This document shows, one piece after another, positions 1-8,359 of a stretch of 36,586 nt of DNA (position 1 is the stretch's first letter; every line of letters begins with the position of its first letter). Below the pieces are notes generated by a model. It saw only the letters and a list, made by a program, of their open reading frames with translations, had not been told where the DNA came from and did no database searches. The stretch comes from Crocinitomicaceae bacterium. Its GTDB lineage: Bacteria > Bacteroidota > Bacteroidia > Flavobacteriales_D > Parvicellaceae. A program made the position numbers and the translations under genes. The stretch spans positions 1 to 36,586 of the forward strand of contig PBNK01000023.1 in the NCBI GenBank assembly GCA_002723085.1, written 5' to 3'.

Positions 1-1529
1 AGAGCATGAAAATTATTGGGGATGTTTTTCAATATACTTCAGAAAATATGCCAAAATTTAACTCCATAAGTATATCAGGATATCATATGCATGAAGCTGG
101 GGCGAGTGCAGAATTAGAATTAGCATATACACTTGCTGATGGTTTAGAATATGTAAAAAAAGGCATTGATGCAGGATTAGCTATTGATGATTTTGCTCCA
201 AGACTATCATTTTTTTGGGGAATTGGAATGAATCATTTTATGGAAATAGCAAAAATGAGAGCTGCACGTTTATTATGGGCAAAAATCATTAAAAAGTTTA
301 ATCCAAAAAACCCAAAATCAATGGCCCTTAGAACACATTGTCAAACATCTGGATGGAGTTTGACTGAACAAGATCCATATAATAACGTAGCTAGAACTTG
401 TATAGAAGCTCTTTCTGCTGTTCAGGGGGGAACACAATCATTACATACTAATTCTCTTGATGAAGCTATTGCTTTACCTAGCGAACATGCGGCCAAAATT
501 GCTAGAAACACTCAACTTTTTATTCAACAAGAAACAGATATTACCAGATCTATAGACCCTTGGGGAGGTTCATATTATGTTGAAAACCTCACAAATGAGC
601 TTACAAATAAAGCATGGAAACTTATTGAGGAAATAGAAGAACTTGGAGGGATGACAAAAGCTATTGAAACTGGTCTACCTAAAATGAAAATTGAAGAGGC
701 GGCTGCTAAACGACAAGCAAGAATTGATAGTGGTAAAGAAATGATTATAGGTGTTAATTCTTATATTTCTGGAAATGAATCAGAAATTGACACACTTGAA
801 ATAGACAATAGTGAAGTAAGATTATCTCAAATTGAAAGACTCACTAAAATTAAGTCTAAACGAGACTCAAATAAAGTCAAAAAAGCATTAATAGATTTGG
901 AGAATTGTGCTGCGGATGGGAATGGTAATCTTCTCGAGTTTGCTGTTGAAGCAGCTAAACATAGAGCAACTCTAGGAGAAATATCTTCTGCTCTAGAAAA
1001 AACATTTGGAAGATACAAAGCAACAATAAGAACAATTTCAGGAATATACTCATCGGAACTTATGAATAACAAAAACTATAATGAAGCTTACGAAACCGCT
1101 AAAAAATTTGAAAAAATTGTTGGAAGAAGACCTAGAATAATGATTGCAAAAATGGGGCAAGATGGACACGACAGAGGCGCTAAAATTGTTGCCACATCTT
1201 TTGCTGATATAGGATTTGATGTCGATATAGGGCCGCTATTTCAAACTCCTGAAGAAGCTGCAAAACAAGCTGTAGAAAACGATGTACATATTCTAGGAAT
1301 TTCTTCATTAGCAGCAGGTCATAAATCTTTAGTACCTGCAGTAATTAAAGCATTAAATGATTTAGGCAGAAAAGATATAATGGTTGTAGTAGGCGGAGTA
1401 ATCCCTAAGAAAGATTATGATATTTTATTTAATGATGGTGTTGCAGCAATTTTTGGCCCAGGAACTAATATTTCAAATGCAGCACAAGACATTATTAAAA
1501 TTATGCTAAAAGGTTATGAAAAAAAATAA
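1..1529 (+). CDS. mutB: Methylmalonyl-CoA mutase large (catalytic, B12-binding) subunit, 5' truncated by window edge
   Basis: Interconverts methylmalonyl-CoA and succinyl-CoA using adenosylcobalamin. The reading frame is open to the window start (first complete codon at base 3), and the 507 residues after the internal ATG at 6 are well short of the roughly 700 usual for the family, so the true start lies outside. Visible motifs include YHMHEAGA (codons about 25-32), matching the family's substrate-side Tyr/His region, then [12 protein letters not shown] and DPWGGSYY. The C-terminal third is a cobalamin-binding domain: DGHDRG, encoded at 1161-1178, is the DxHxxG motif whose His is the lower cobalt ligand, and GGVIP and GPGT follow. 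An intact DxHxxG marks the catalytic large subunit rather than the B12-free small subunit, which I expect upstream. The 3' end overlaps the next gene by 14 bp, suggesting translational coupling. Confidence 0.96.
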
Positions 1530-2727: not shown

Positions 2728-3612
2728 ATGCGTAAATCTATTTTTAATCCAAGAAATAAAGTGGGGTTAGTTATTCAAGGTGGCTCGTTACGCTCTATTT
2801 TCACCTCTGGAGTACTTGATGCTTTTATCGCTACAAAATTTTATCCTTTTAAATACATTATAGGTGTTTCTGGTGGTGCAATGTGCATGGCCTATTATTT
2901 ATCAAAACAATATGGACACACTTACAACATAATGTACAAACTTTCTACAAATACTAATTTTATTAGTCTGAGAAATATTTTTGATGAACAAGGAATGATT
3001 AACCTAGAATATTTAGAAAAATACTCTAAAGAAAATTATCCATTAAACTTAAAAAAAATAAACAGATCTCTTATTAACACTTATGTTGAAACGGTTACTA
3101 CTTCATTAAAAGATGGACATCCTAAATATTTGAGAACAAACAAAAAAAATATTTACAACCATATTAAAGCAAGCGGTACACTTCCATTTTTCACAAAAGG
3201 TCAGCAAACAATTGACAATCATCCTCTTATGGATGGAGGGTTAAGTGACCCTATTCCTATTAAAAGAGCTATTAGTATGGGTTGTACTGAAATTGTAGTA
3301 ATTAGAACATTACCAAAAGAGCATAGAGAAAACTGGAGCTATCTAGGTAAACTAGGTACTTATTGGCACAGAAACAATAAACAACTAAGCAATATTTTTG
3401 AAAACGAACCTAAAATTTATAATGAAATTGCTGATTTTCTAGAGTTTAATGAACATCCGTTAAAAATACATCAAATTGGTCCTGAAAAATATCTAGAAAC
3501 TAGCAGTTACTCAACTAACAAAAAAAAATTAAATGCAGATTACAGGTACGGATTACAAATGGGTTTAAACATGGTTCAAACCTTAAGACATAAAATTGAA
3601 ATTTATAATTAA
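2728..3612 (+). CDS. Patatin-like phospholipase family protein
   Basis: Predicted serine acyl-hydrolase with a Ser-Asp dyad, probably acting on membrane or lipid acyl esters. The patatin signatures are all present: the GGxxR oxyanion loop at residues 18-22 (GGSLR), the nucleophile elbow GVSGG with Ser48, and the D-G-G motif with Asp169 (LMDGGLSDP). Its layout (294 residues, no extra domains, no signal peptide or membrane segment) resembles the YjjU-type cytosolic patatins. The start is the first ATG after the divergent spacer. The stop overlaps that of the leftward DUF2797 gene by 4 bp. The physiological substrate cannot be read from sequence. Confidence 0.92.
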   Translation: MRKSIFNPRNKVGLVIQGGSLRSIFTSGVLDAFIATKFYPFKYIIGVSGGAMCMAYYLSKQYGHTYNIMYKLSTNTNFISLRNIFDEQGMINLEYLEKYSKENYPLNLKKINRSLINTYVETVTTSLKDGHPKYLRTNKKNIYNHIKASGTLPFFTKGQQTIDNHPLMDGGLSDPIPIKRAISMGCTEIVVIRTLPKEHRENWSYLGKLGTYWHRNNKQLSNIFENEPKIYNEIADFLEFNEHPLKIHQIGPEKYLETSSYSTNKKKLNADYRYGLQMGLNMVQTLRHKIEIYN

Positions 3613-4421
3613 AAAGAAAGTTCAACTAAATATCCTGTATGTTTCCTAATATTAAAAACAGTGTCATTGTCAAATAGTAAATATTGTCCCTTTATACCAA
3701 CTAACTTTTCTTCAATTAAAGGGCATTTATCTAAACCTACAGATTTAACTTTTTCAGGATATCTAATTACTGGAAATTTTAAATGGGTTACTTGTTCTGA
3801 TTTCTTCACGTATTGAATGAGTTCATCATCAACAAAAGGGATTAATTTATTTCTTAATTCATATAAATCATCGTCAACTAAATTATTTTGCAGCATTTTT
3901 CTCCAGTTAGTTCTATCTGAAATGTAATTTTTCAACTTTATCTCAATTAAACCAGCCGCTTGTCTATATGGAGTTTCTGCAATTATCAGTGCCTCAGATG
4001 CTCCTTGGTCAATCCATCTTGTTGGAATTTGTGTAGTTCTTGTCACCCCAACTTTTACACCTGCTGCTTTGGATAGATAAACATAATGGGGTTGCATATG
4101 ATGCTTCATCTCCCATTCATAGTCTCTTAGAGCAATTCCTTCGTGAATTTTACTAAGTTCAGGACGAATTATACTTTCTACAGCTAAAGGAGAGGATTTA
4201 AAAGCATCGTAAGACATGCCATCTCCATAGGCTTTCTTAATTCTTTTTCCTGAAACGACACAATTAATTGTACCAGAATAAGATATTGATATGGTTTGAC
4301 CAATCAATTCATTCATATTCACTTCTTCAGATTGAATTAGGTTGTCAAATAATGGCAAACAATAATTGACTTCATTATTAATTGAAGCCCTCATTTTCCT
4401 AATGTTTCCGTAAAATTTCAT
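3609..4421 (-). CDS. DUF2797 family protein lacking most of the family's cysteines
   Basis: A 270-residue protein matching DUF2797, whose function is unknown. The diagnostic core is intact: HYVYLSKAAGVKVGVTR (about 111-127) followed by IPTRWIDQGAS and a TNWRKML segment. Family members I recall have paired cysteines in the preceding region, of the form CxxCG ... GyCypC ... C..C ... PELC, which look like zinc ligands. Here only Cys54 remains; the other expected positions are Ser57, Ser70, Ala73, Ala80, Ser83 and Ser90. The start at 4421 fits the family N-terminus (a short basic stretch, then a YCLPL segment), but it lies about 6 bases beyond the T-run of the preceding gene's terminator. That leaves almost no room for a separate 5' UTR. 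Confidence 0.88.
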   Translation of the reverse strand: MKFYGNIRKMRASINNEVNYCLPLFDNLIQSEEVNMNELIGQTISISYSGTINCVVSGKRIKKAYGDGMSYDAFKSSPLAVESIIRPELSKIHEGIALRDYEWEMKHHMQPHYVYLSKAAGVKVGVTRTTQIPTRWIDQGASEALIIAETPYRQAAGLIEIKLKNYISDRTNWRKMLQNNLVDDDLYELRNKLIPFVDDELIQYVKKSEQVTHLKFPVIRYPEKVKSVGLDKCPLIEEKLVGIKGQYLLFDNDTVFNIRKHTGYLVELSF

Positions 4422-4478: not shown

Positions 4479-5753
4479 TTATAACGAATCTAATTTAGCT
4501 TTAATTCTATTGTATTCATCCATCATTTCTAAATTAAAATAAATACTTTTTAAAGTTTTTAAAGTAGACTTATCTTCAGGTGATGTTTCTAATACTTTTT
4601 CCAAATAAGGGAATGCTTCTTTCATCATTTCTTCCCCTCTCTTCATTTCTTTATCATATTTCTCACCTTCATAATCGCCAGCAATTGACTTAACTTCTTG
4701 AGATTGATTAACATATAATGCCCCTAAATTATAATATGCATCAGCATATTTAGGGTCCAATTCAATTGCTTTTTTATAAGACAAAATCGCTTTATTCATA
4801 AATTCAAAAGCCTCTTCATGTTTTTTGTTTTCATGAGAGCTATTTGACATGTTATCGAAAGTAACTCCAATATTAAAATGTAATGTTTTATTATTTGGAT
4901 CAGCTTCAACTGCTTTTTGAAGTGCTAATTGAGCTTTAGTATTTTCACCCTTACCATACCAAAAATTAAATTCTTCAACATTTAACACAAAATCTCCTGG
5001 AAATTTCTTTTTTCCTTCTTCAATTACCGAAATTACTTTTTCATCATCTGAATCTTCTTTTGCTGTTAAAACTCTAATCATAGACTGATACATTTCAGCA
5101 CCATCACCATAATTATTATCTGCACACATCTTATAATATGTGTATGCATTATCAAAGTTTTTAATTCTTTCTGCTGCTAAAGCAGCATTAATCATTCCCA
5201 AAGTATCAGGAATAGAAAGAACATCATACAACTCTACAGAAGATTTAAATGCTTCATAAGCATTGGCATAATCCTCCTTTTGAAACAATGCTACTCCACC
5301 ATTAATCATCATCCCCCTAAGCATACCAATTTTTCTTTTAATTAAATTCTTCCATTCACCTTTAGTATCTAATTCTAAACATTTTTTTAAAGAGCCTAAA
5401 GAAGAATTATTAAGTTCATCTTCTGGGATAGACTTAACATCAGCCATAACTTCTTCATCCATTGAAGCCATCATTACATAATCAAGATATATCATCCCTC
5501 TGTAATAATACATTTTAGTTAAATCTTTTGATTTAGTAAATGGTGTTGTTAATTGTTTATTGAATGAGCCATCAATTGCAGTTTTAGCCTTTGTCAAAAT
5601 GGCTTTGTTTTTTTGCAATTGATCAGGCTGTGTCATCCAAGCTGGACTTAAGTTATTCTTATATTCAGTTGCAGCCTCCGTTAATTGTAGCTTTTGTCCA
5701 AAAGTTGAATTAATGGTAAAAAATGCTATAGCAATGATTATATTCTTTTTCAT
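4479..5753 (-). CDS. Secreted tetratricopeptide-repeat protein downstream of gyrA
   Basis: A 424-residue protein with an N-terminal signal peptide: MKKN, a hydrophobic stretch IIIAIAFF, and a probable cleavage near TFG|Q at residues 18-20. It should therefore be periplasmic or outer-membrane associated. The mature part is helical-repeat rich. TPR-like helices are clearest near residues 155-215 (YANAYEAFKSSVELY) and 285-350 (ADAYYNLGALYVNQS). It is a scaffold with no catalytic motif. It follows gyrA by 17 bp and ends in a strong terminator, so gyrA and this gene form a two-gene operon, an arrangement I recall from other Flavobacteriia. The functional reason for the pairing is not evident. Confidence 0.9.
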   Translation of the reverse strand: MKKNIIIAIAFFTINSTFGQKLQLTEAATEYKNNLSPAWMTQPDQLQKNKAILTKAKTAIDGSFNKQLTTPFTKSKDLTKMYYYRGMIYLDYVMMASMDEEVMADVKSIPEDELNNSSLGSLKKCLELDTKGEWKNLIKRKIGMLRGMMINGGVALFQKEDYANAYEAFKSSVELYDVLSIPDTLGMINAALAAERIKNFDNAYTYYKMCADNNYGDGAEMYQSMIRVLTAKEDSDDEKVISVIEEGKKKFPGDFVLNVEEFNFWYGKGENTKAQLALQKAVEADPNNKTLHFNIGVTFDNMSNSSHENKKHEEAFEFMNKAILSYKKAIELDPKYADAYYNLGALYVNQSQEVKSIAGDYEGEKYDKEMKRGEEMMKEAFPYLEKVLETSPEDKSTLKTLKSIYFNLEMMDEYNRIKAKLDSL

Positions 5754-5770: not shown

Positions 5771-8359
5771 TTAATCTTTTAATTCTGATTCGTCAGAATC
5801 ATTGTTGTTTTTACTATCAATAATGTTGCCAGAATTACCTTCCTGGATATTATCCCCGTTTAAATTATCAACTGATTCATCTATATCTTCATCGTCTTTC
5901 TCAACTTTAGCAACTGCAGCAATTTGATCTTTCCCTTTAAGGTTAATCAATTTAACTCCTTGAGTTGCTCTTCCTTGAGTACGAATATCAGCTACATGCA
6001 TTCTAATCGTAATTCCCGATTTATTAATGATCATTAAATCATCATCATCTGTAACTACCTTAATGGCAATTAAATTTCCTGTTTTTTCTGTAACGGTAAG
6101 TGTCTTAACCCCTTTTCCTCCTCTATTAGTAATTCTGTATATAGGTTCTCCTGTTTCAGGATCATTAAGTAAAGTTCTTTTTCCATATCCATTTTCAGAA
6201 ACAACCATAATAGTATGGCTAAAGTCCTCAACACATACCATTCCAACCACTTCATCTGAATCGCTTCCTAATCTTATTCCCCTGACTCCGGAAGCTGTTC
6301 TGCCCATTGAACGAACAGTACTTTCGTTAAATCGAATAGCCCTTCCTGACTTAATAGCTAATAAAATTTCATTTTCACCATTGGTTAGCTTAGCTTCTAA
6401 TAACTCGTCTCCTTCTCTGATACTAATTGCATTTATGCCATTGGTTCTAGGTCTAGAATAAGCATCTAAACTTGTTTTCTTTATCACCCCTTCTTTAGTA
6501 CACATTACTATATAGTTGCTTTCAGTATACTCTTTATCTTTAATGTCTTTAACCACTACATAAGCCTTTACTTTATCGTCTTGCTCAATATTAATAAGAT
6601 TTTGAATTGCTCTTCCTTTAGCCGATTTATTTCCTTCAGGCACTTCAAAAATTCTCATCCAGAAACATCTTCCTTTTTCAGTAAAAACTAATAGCCAATT
6701 ATGATTTGTTGCTACAAATAATTGTTCAAGAAAATCTTTTTCTCTAGTTGATGAACCTTTTGAACCTACTCCACCTCTATTTTGTACTTTATATTCATTT
6801 AAAGAAGTTCTTTTAATGTAACCTGCGTGTGAAATGGTTATTACAACTTCATCATTAGGTATAAGATCTTCAATACTCATTTCATTAGCAGAATATTCTA
6901 TAATTGATCTTCTTTCATCACCATATTTATTCTTAATTTCTAACAACTCTGTTTTAATGATATCCATTCTTCTACTTTCGTTATTAAGAATATCTTTTAA
7001 ATCTTTAATGGTTTCTAACAATGCTTCATACTCAGCTCTTAATTTGTCTTGTTCAAGACCAGTTAATTGCCTTAATCTCATTTCAACAATTGCCTTAGAT
7101 TGAACATCTGACAATTTAAATGTTTTCATAAGTTTTTCTCTAGCCTCATCAGGACTCTTTGATGCTCTAATTAATGCTATAACTTCATCAATATTATCAG
7201 ATGCAATTATTAATCCTTCAAGTATATGAGCTCTTTCTTCAGCTTTCCTTAGTTCATATTTAGATCTTCTAATAACAACCTCATGTCTGTGATCCACAAA
7301 ATGTGAAATCATATCCTTAAGATTTAACATTTGAGGCCTGCCATTAACTAAAGCTATGTTATTGACTGAAAATGAGGTCTGTAATGACGTGTATTTAAAC
7401 AATTTATTTAATACAACATTAGGAATTGCATCTCTTTTAATTTCATAGACAATTCGCATTCCATTTCTATCCGATTCATCCCTAATTTCAGAAATTCCTT
7501 CAAGTTTTCCTTCGCTAATTAATGAAGCTGTTTTTTGAATCATATCAGCTTTATTTACTTGATAAGGAATTTCATTCACAATAATAGCTTCTCTATTTTC
7601 TCTTATTTCTTCAATTGAAGCTTTAGCACGCATAACTATCCTGCCTCTACCCTCATGAAAAGCGTTTTTAACCCCTTCATATCCATATATAGTACCGCCA
7701 GTTGGGAAATCAGGAGCTTTAACAAACTCCATTAAACCATCAATATCAATATTTTTATTGTCAATATAAGCAATTGTTCCATCAATAACTTCAGACAAAT
7801 TATGAGGAGCCATATTTGTCGCCATCCCTACAGCAATACCAGCAGCACCATTGACCAATAAATTTGGTATTCTTGTTGGTAAAACTGTTGGCTCACTTAA
7901 TGAATCATCAAAATTTGGAGAAAAATCTACAGTATCTTTATCAAGATCTGAAAGTAATTCTTCAGCAGCTCTTTTTAATCTCGCCTCTGTATAACGCATG
8001 GCAGCAGGACTATCGCCATCAACTGAACCAAAATTACCTTGACCATCCACTAAAGGATATCTTAATGACCATTCTTGAGCCATTCTGACCATGGTGTCGT
8101 AAACAGAAGAATCTCCATGAGGATGGTACTTACCTAAAACATCTCCGACAATTCTGGCTGATTTTCTATAAGAACTATTTGCTCTAACACCAAGTTCCTG
8201 CATCCCATATAAAACTCTTCTATGAACAGGTTTTAACCCGTCTCTTACATCTGGTAATGCACGAGAAACTATAACTGACATTGAATAATCAATGTAAGCT
8301 GTTTTCATTTCATCTTCAATACTTACTGGTATGATTCTTTCACCGCTTTCTTCGCTCAT
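5771..8359 (-). CDS. gyrA: DNA gyrase subunit A
   Basis: Breakage-reunion subunit of DNA gyrase, which introduces negative supercoils with GyrB. The N-terminal winged-helix domain carries catalytic Tyr123 in [10 protein letters not shown]. The quinolone-determining region reads [14 protein letters not shown], with Ser84 and Asp88 equivalent to E. coli Ser83 and Asp87, so the usual resistance substitutions are absent. A coiled-coil region (about 400-500) precedes the C-terminal beta-pinwheel. The GyrA-box region reads [10 protein letters not shown], and a second NRGGKG occurs later. The last ~45 residues are an acidic, Asn/Ser-rich tail. Length 862 is normal. Its promoter must lie in the 224-bp divergent spacer shared with clpC; I could not find a clean -7 element for the leftward direction there. 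Confidence 0.98.

Follow-up and report, generated by a model that had tools for sequence, protein, structure and literature searches.

DUF2797 proteins of a Crocinitomicaceae bacterium and its relatives: a clade-wide loss of presumed zinc ligands beside a core that suggests a GIY-YIG nuclease-type domain

Loss of cysteines from zinc ribbons is an ordinary and known kind of event; among the ribosomal zinc ribbons, the C+/C- proteins, which are often pairs of paralogues, lose cysteines yet remain folded. In Slx1, which has a nuclease domain and a zinc finger, the finger is placed after the nuclease domain. In PMC8287910, Tyr17, Arg39 and Glu82 of Slx1 are given as invariant in the superfamily, and Hpy188I is described with the second tyrosine replaced by lysine. 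Gp88, a T5orf172 nuclease, is without the helix-1 histidine or tyrosine according to PMC8263062, and the scheme proposed for ANKLE1 in PMC10287932 uses tyrosine (and histidine) as base, with glutamate and asparagine on the metal. For DUF2797 itself, the flavobacterial cluster flavo9.00789 is annotated with 'contains Zn ribbon' in PMC9425974. In the open-licence literature naming the family, no mention of DUF2797 having a GIY-YIG domain was found, and the text of the 2006 GIY-YIG survey does not contain 'DUF'.

The DUF2797 protein studied here is encoded in a stretch of 36,586 nucleotides of a Crocinitomicaceae bacterium (contig PBNK01000023.1), which as a whole is called the window. It belongs to the same family as flavo9.00789 and has its full length, but its clade lacks the Zn ribbon cysteines; the accessible part of PMC9425974 proposes no enzyme. 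Among GIY-YIG systems, Slx1 (PMC8287910) gives the best structural match and likewise unites a GIY-YIG domain with a zinc finger domain in a single chain, although Slx1 is inactive without Slx4. T5orf172 (PF10544), such as ICP1 Gp88/Odn (PMC8263062), shares with DUF2797 the order Tyr, Lys-x-Gly, Arg, Glu and has no helix-1 histidine; unlike it, DUF2797 has a finger in addition, as well as flanking strands, and was not seen as a homing gene. In R.Hpy188I (PMC2630997) a lysine (K73) replaces the tyrosine of YIG, as Lys123 does in DUF2797; however, it is a restriction enzyme, with Tyr88 and Gln169 in its predicted site. The linker zinc finger of I-TevI (PMC10448857) is also located beside a GIY-YIG domain, and regulates cutting rather than DNA binding, but I-TevI is a homing endonuclease with another arrangement.

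The DUF2797 gene is located at 3609..4421 on the minus strand, with an ATG start at 4421 and the stop at 3609-3611, and encodes 270 amino acid residues. The protein is a full-length member of the family, matching Pfam PF10977 with an E value of 1.3e-79 and 267.6 bits (cut-off 25 bits) over profile positions 1-227 of 227. A search of the genome (2.43 Mb, 95% complete) found a single copy. Directly upstream, on the same strand, is a gene encoding a TPR protein (4479..5753, minus; Pfam TPR), and upstream of that is gyrA (5771..8359, minus; DNA_topoisoIV with an E value of 1.9e-171, and DNA_gyraseA_C). The TPR neighbour is retained in the close relatives L031-L041, and gyrA adjoins both genes in L032-L041. 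A patatin-like phospholipase gene (2728..3612, plus; Pfam Patatin) is convergent with DUF2797, the two overlapping by four bases at their stops, tail to tail. Considering flanks of up to 3 kb, any of seven tested neighbours was common to 11 of the 80 DUF2797 loci, all of them close relatives, and the gene neighbourhood says little about the function of DUF2797. Elsewhere in the window, 2010-2666 on the minus strand encodes an acidic protein that ends in a C-terminal tail of successive GEEGVS repeats, with an apparent membrane helix before the tail and a weak collagen-type Pfam match under the cut-off.

DUF2797 is frequent in Flavobacteriales and is also found in Gammaproteobacteria, Cyanobacteria and haloarchaea. 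It was present in 53 of 60 related genomes, the other seven showing no match, and in one of 14 well-known control genomes, Haloferax volcanii. Most relatives searched have one match per genome, and no homing-gene character was seen. The nearest relative, of the same genus and 87% identical (L031 145-954, the same as L117, genome G001), shows an in-frame TAA near DUF2797 residue 215, which is either an error of the metagenome-assembled genome or a recent pseudogene. Two plasmid loci have neighbourhoods of their own. In a Halocatena plasmid (L136 2854-6494) a Piwi-domain gene follows DUF2797 on the same strand after about 540 bases. In a Pseudomonas plasmid (L133 1665-6550) DUF2797 is flanked by a DUF1315 gene and pepN, and a rhomboid gene is close by, which fits the association of rhomboid and M1-peptidase given in PMC12804078.

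The preliminary description of the window had placed family cysteines at six positions where the protein now has Ser57, Ser70, Ala73, Ala80, Ser83 and Ser90, with Cys54 as the only one remaining, and these residues are as it gave them. For a comparison of the columns, 126 distinct sequences were aligned (the window and 136 loci, with 11 duplicates merged), among them six of 14 plasmid matches; three genomes with fragments only (G013, G023 and G024) and a second fragment in G014 were left out. Cysteine was found in 125 sequences at column 54, 85 at column 57, 87 at column 70 and 85 at column 73, and in five, 26 and 25 sequences at columns 80, 83 and 90. Written over these seven columns with C for cysteine, the patterns were CCCC... 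in 59 sequences, C...... in 38, CCCC.CC in 20 and CCCCCCC in five, with C.C.... in two, CCCC.C. in one and no cysteine in one. Outside the group with zero to two cysteines, all 85 sequences have Cys at 54, 57, 70 and 73. Relatives have cysteines at the positions described, five of the six named positions being Cys in the six-cysteine form; the shared pattern excludes chance. A form with all seven does exist (five of 126), but it is mainly gammaproteobacterial and cyanobacterial rather than general: Cys80, and with it the seven-cysteine pattern, was found only in four plasmid copies, of Photobacterium, Acaryochloris, Pseudomonas and Salinivibrio and in one Flavobacteriales sequence (L002).

Within the order of the window, nine other families (15 genomes examined) show six cysteines, with seven in one genome. 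The Flavobacterium-type sequences show four, with Trp83 and Ser90 in 59 of 59, and the usual form in the group of the window at the seven columns is C, T, S, A, A, S, S. With Cys54 only, the window protein falls outside the DUF2797 members with a Zn ribbon, defined by Cys at 54, 57, 70 and 73. The seven-cysteine form would presumably bind two zinc ions, one at 54/57/70/73 and the other at 80/83/90 together with a histidine; the Flavobacterium type would then have dropped the second presumed site and the group of the window both. A weak match to zf-UBR was observed in 14 of 36 DUF2797 members (best E value 0.014) and was read as a match of the cysteine pattern.

The loss is shared by close relatives. 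All 28 genomes examined from the window's family show it, as do all seven from three further families of the order (2/2, 3/3 and 2/2), which rules out a change confined to the window's genome. A phylogenetic tree was generated from 76 of the 126 sequences under LG+G4, with 50 of the 59 four-cysteine rows left out and residues 50-92 excluded. The 41 rows with zero to two cysteines formed one clade with support of 100/99, in a tree whose bootstrap had not fully settled (0.983), and the nine included four-cysteine rows formed another (100/100). Being common to four families and found in a single clade, the event is old. Unlike the C+/C- ribosomal proteins, it concerns one orthologue in a clade and not a pair of paralogues. 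One member of the clade, L044, has also lost Cys54, which is Ser there. Two others (L122 and L125), of one genus nested inside the zinc-less clade, have Cys70 besides Cys54; this position in the tree suggests that their Cys70 is probably a reversion.

The former zinc finger comprises residues 54-95 (4137..4262, minus), with Cys54 kept and the six substituted residues at the ligand columns of the relatives. In the zinc-less clade, mean pairwise identity is 0.75 over the finger (0.72 without the ligand columns), 0.71 over residues 102-178 and 0.48 over residues 1-53; the corresponding values in the six-cysteine group are 0.63 (0.56 without the ligand columns) for the finger, 0.64 for the core and 0.34 for residues 1-53. 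Relaxed selection on the finger is ruled out, since its identity in the clade equals that of the core. The replacements are themselves conserved among the 41 sequences, with Ser83 and Ser90 in all, Ala73 in 39, Ser70 in 38 and Thr57 in 34, next to Cys54 in 40. Other switches accompany the loss, among them Met69 for Phe (37/41) and Ile92 for Ala (39/41), and would fit a repacking around the vacant presumed metal sites. The finger has the same helices in the modelled window protein as in the modelled six-cysteine relative L047. The preliminary description had proposed a concerted loss in which the metal site was abandoned while the core stayed under selection. The joint loss and the selected core stand, but the finger was kept and not left to decay. 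The clade could drop the cysteines but not the sequence of the finger, which suggests that the shape of the finger is more important than its zinc.

The core, described beforehand as intact, is so: residues 102-213 (3783..4118, minus) contain Tyr115, Lys123, Gly125, Arg135, Gln139, Arg153 and Glu160 in 126 of 126 sequences, and Asn172 in 109. In a one-template comparison with hhalign, residues 105-215 matched a set of eight T5orf172 sequences with a probability of 83, an E value of 9e-6 and a score of 34.3; the best of 200 column shuffles scored 18.0 (0 of 200 as good) and the reversed alignment 10.6, and residues 1-100 and 180-270 gave no match to T5orf172. This set consisted of eight of the 24 matches, chosen for the best scores at wide coverage; L180 and the 15 weaker matches were left out. 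The stretch Y115...K123-V-G125...R135...E160 resembles the active site of GIY-YIG nucleases. In the alignment, the Tyr, Lys-x-Gly, Arg and Glu of the motif fall opposite each other in the two families, and lysine is at the YIG position in eight of eight T5orf172 sequences, as judged by eye. By subset, the rows with kept cysteines matched T5orf172 at 86% and six plasmid outgroup rows at 61%, and the 41 zinc-less sequences alone matched it weakly (26%, E value 7e-4).

Against 26 PF01541 sequences (of 30 loci; L182, L246, L250 and L254, which also match T5orf172, were left out) hhalign found no match to DUF2797 (0.35%), and since one of 30 shuffles reached 41%, this direct comparison says little in either direction. 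The link of DUF2797 to GIY-YIG goes by way of T5orf172, which itself gave a match of 92% with PF01541. Searches of 36 DUF2797 members up to an E value of 10 found no match to PF01541, PF10544 or any other GIY-YIG family of Pfam, which makes DUF2797 a distant relative and not a filed member of either family. Searches of PDB sequences by phmmer and with the 36-sequence profile gave nothing meaningful (a GTP pyrophosphokinase with an E value of 0.64 and a centrosomal protein with 0.1), NCBIfam no match, and PHROGs one weak row only (E value 0.29). The core shows the features of the T5orf172 branch of GIY-YIG, with the GIY tyrosine, the helix 1 arginine, the glutamate of a later helix, Lys-x-Gly for YIG and a significant profile match. 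It departs from the classical type of UvrC and Slx1, with Lys123 for the YIG tyrosine and Gln139 for the helix-1 histidine or tyrosine in all 126 sequences. These comparisons suggest, for the DUF2797 core, a GIY-YIG nuclease domain similar to that of T5orf172.

The two models, one of the window protein and one of L047, reached a pLDDT of 94-95 (94.6 for the AlphaFold2 model of the window protein); they share one alignment and so are not independent. In VIA-align, the top rows of the window model were four Slx1 chains, with Z of 5.0-5.4, rmsd of 3.5-3.8 and 91-93 aligned residues in the range 98-213, followed by OB folds with Z of 4.0 and below. Six Slx1 chains (Z 4.0-4.8) were likewise the top rows of the L047 model, with UPF0213 at 2.5 and UvrC at 2.4. 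Values of Z near 5 are modest, since models free of a clear match typically reach a best Z of 7 to 8 in a large set, and the Slx1 values may reflect merely a common arrangement. Foldseek alone found nothing at an E value of 0.001 or below (best 0.4). The parts flanking the finger and the core, residues 1-53 (4263..4421, minus) and 216-270 (3612..3776, minus), may form the two halves of an OB-like beta barrel, the first being weakly indicated: the window model matched SSB, PriB and RuvB-like OB domains with Z of 3-4 over an aligned range of 1..270. Such rows were absent with the L047 model, in which the first residues are missing, and its remaining rows were not SSB-type OB folds.

On balance, these sequence and model comparisons make it somewhat probable that DUF2797 combines a finger-type module and a GIY-YIG domain of the T5orf172 branch between two OB-like halves, as a nuclease whose finger has become metal-free in the clade of the window. 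The finger (residues 54-95) and the catalytic domain (102-213) would sit between the apparent barrel halves (1-53 and 216-270), the substrate, a nucleic acid, would be held by barrel and finger, and a phosphodiester would be hydrolyzed. Following the scheme proposed for ANKLE1 (PMC10287932), Tyr115 would act as base, Lys123, in place of the YIG tyrosine, and Arg135 would contact the phosphate, and Glu160, perhaps with Asn172, would hold Mg or Mn. Among the presumed zinc ligands, those at 57, 70 and 73 and at 83 and 90 would have changed to Ser, Thr or Ala in the clade's ancestor while Cys54 stayed, and the larger side chains Met at 69 and Ile at 92 would have come alongside. The finger would now fold metal-free and stay beside the catalytic domain, where it probably positions substrate or domain, with the linker finger of I-TevI as a parallel. 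Under this proposal DUF2797 is most likely a nucleic-acid nuclease, of which we infer the cutting itself.

It is rather unlikely that the core has the GIY-YIG fold and is no nuclease: it would bind a nucleotide or nucleic acid, with the finger as an interaction surface whose metal became dispensable. The lysine for the YIG tyrosine and the glutamine for the histidine or tyrosine would agree with this, as would the finding of no measured activity for any DUF2797 member in the accessible open-licence literature. However, the catalytic positions are occupied by Tyr115, Arg135 and Glu160 without exception in the alignment, and both deviations have precedents in nucleases, lysine at YIG in Hpy188I (PMC8287910, PMC2630997) and no helix-1 histidine in Gp88 (PMC8263062).

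The loss had been attributed, with a perhaps, to a low-zinc lineage, in which DUF2797 would be one of several zinc-sparing changes, and the same trend was looked for in other zinc proteins. It was encountered in some of them: in the window's genome L31 and L32 are without CxxC, DnaJ (L137) has two of the four CxxCxGxG repeats, and no match to the ClpX zinc finger was found, which either counts in favour of this attribution, as a further loss of a zinc domain, or comes from a missing contig. It was not encountered in LigA, which keeps its four cysteines, or in a UvrA-like protein, which keeps five CxxC pairs. However, the L32 and DnaJ changes also occur where DUF2797 has six cysteines. All 47 L32 sequences read from the order (of 50 fetched) are without CxxC, including the 12 read from families with six-cysteine DUF2797, one of these counted from a genome (G037) whose own DUF2797 was not found. 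Among 22 DnaJ sequences read of 30 loci, 20 have two repeats, 16 of 16 from the four zinc-less families and four of six from six-cysteine families; the exceptions, with four and three repeats, are from two genomes of one family. The ClpX finger, judged by scores, is above the cut-off in 54 of 60 relatives, and in 32 of 36 of the same family. A specific zinc-saving trend was rejected on these comparisons, and adaptation to scarce zinc is an improbable explanation that the data do not support.

Equally doubtful is that the cysteines formed a redox or iron-sulfur centre, and not a zinc site, that the clade gave up. CxxC pairs are also used in redox and Fe-S proteins; however, two CxxC pairs (54/57 and 70/73) are found here 12 residues apart, and zinc ribbons have two CxxC pairs with such spacing. 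The note 'contains Zn ribbon' in PMC9425974 also argues against it. Least probable of all, the zinc-less finger might still hold a metal through Cys54, His93 and acidic residues, Cys54 being kept in 40 of the 41 clade members and His93 present in 121 of 126 sequences, but His93 is equally present in the cysteine-rich forms, L044 has Ser instead of Cys54, and the switches specific to the clade include no column newly occupied by His, Cys or Asp.

What is new here is the GIY-YIG resemblance of the DUF2797 core, which the profile and model comparisons suggest. It is possible, if somewhat short of an even chance, that DUF2797 is an unrecognised and possibly essential chromosomal GIY-YIG nuclease that has an OB-like barrel and a finger for one or two zinc ions, which became metal-free in one clade with the catalytic site kept. 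The nuclease prediction names its catalytic residues and is directly testable, and the zinc-less clade allows fingers with and without metal to be compared readily. If the proposal is true, this clade would be a natural experiment on the purpose of the finger's metal.
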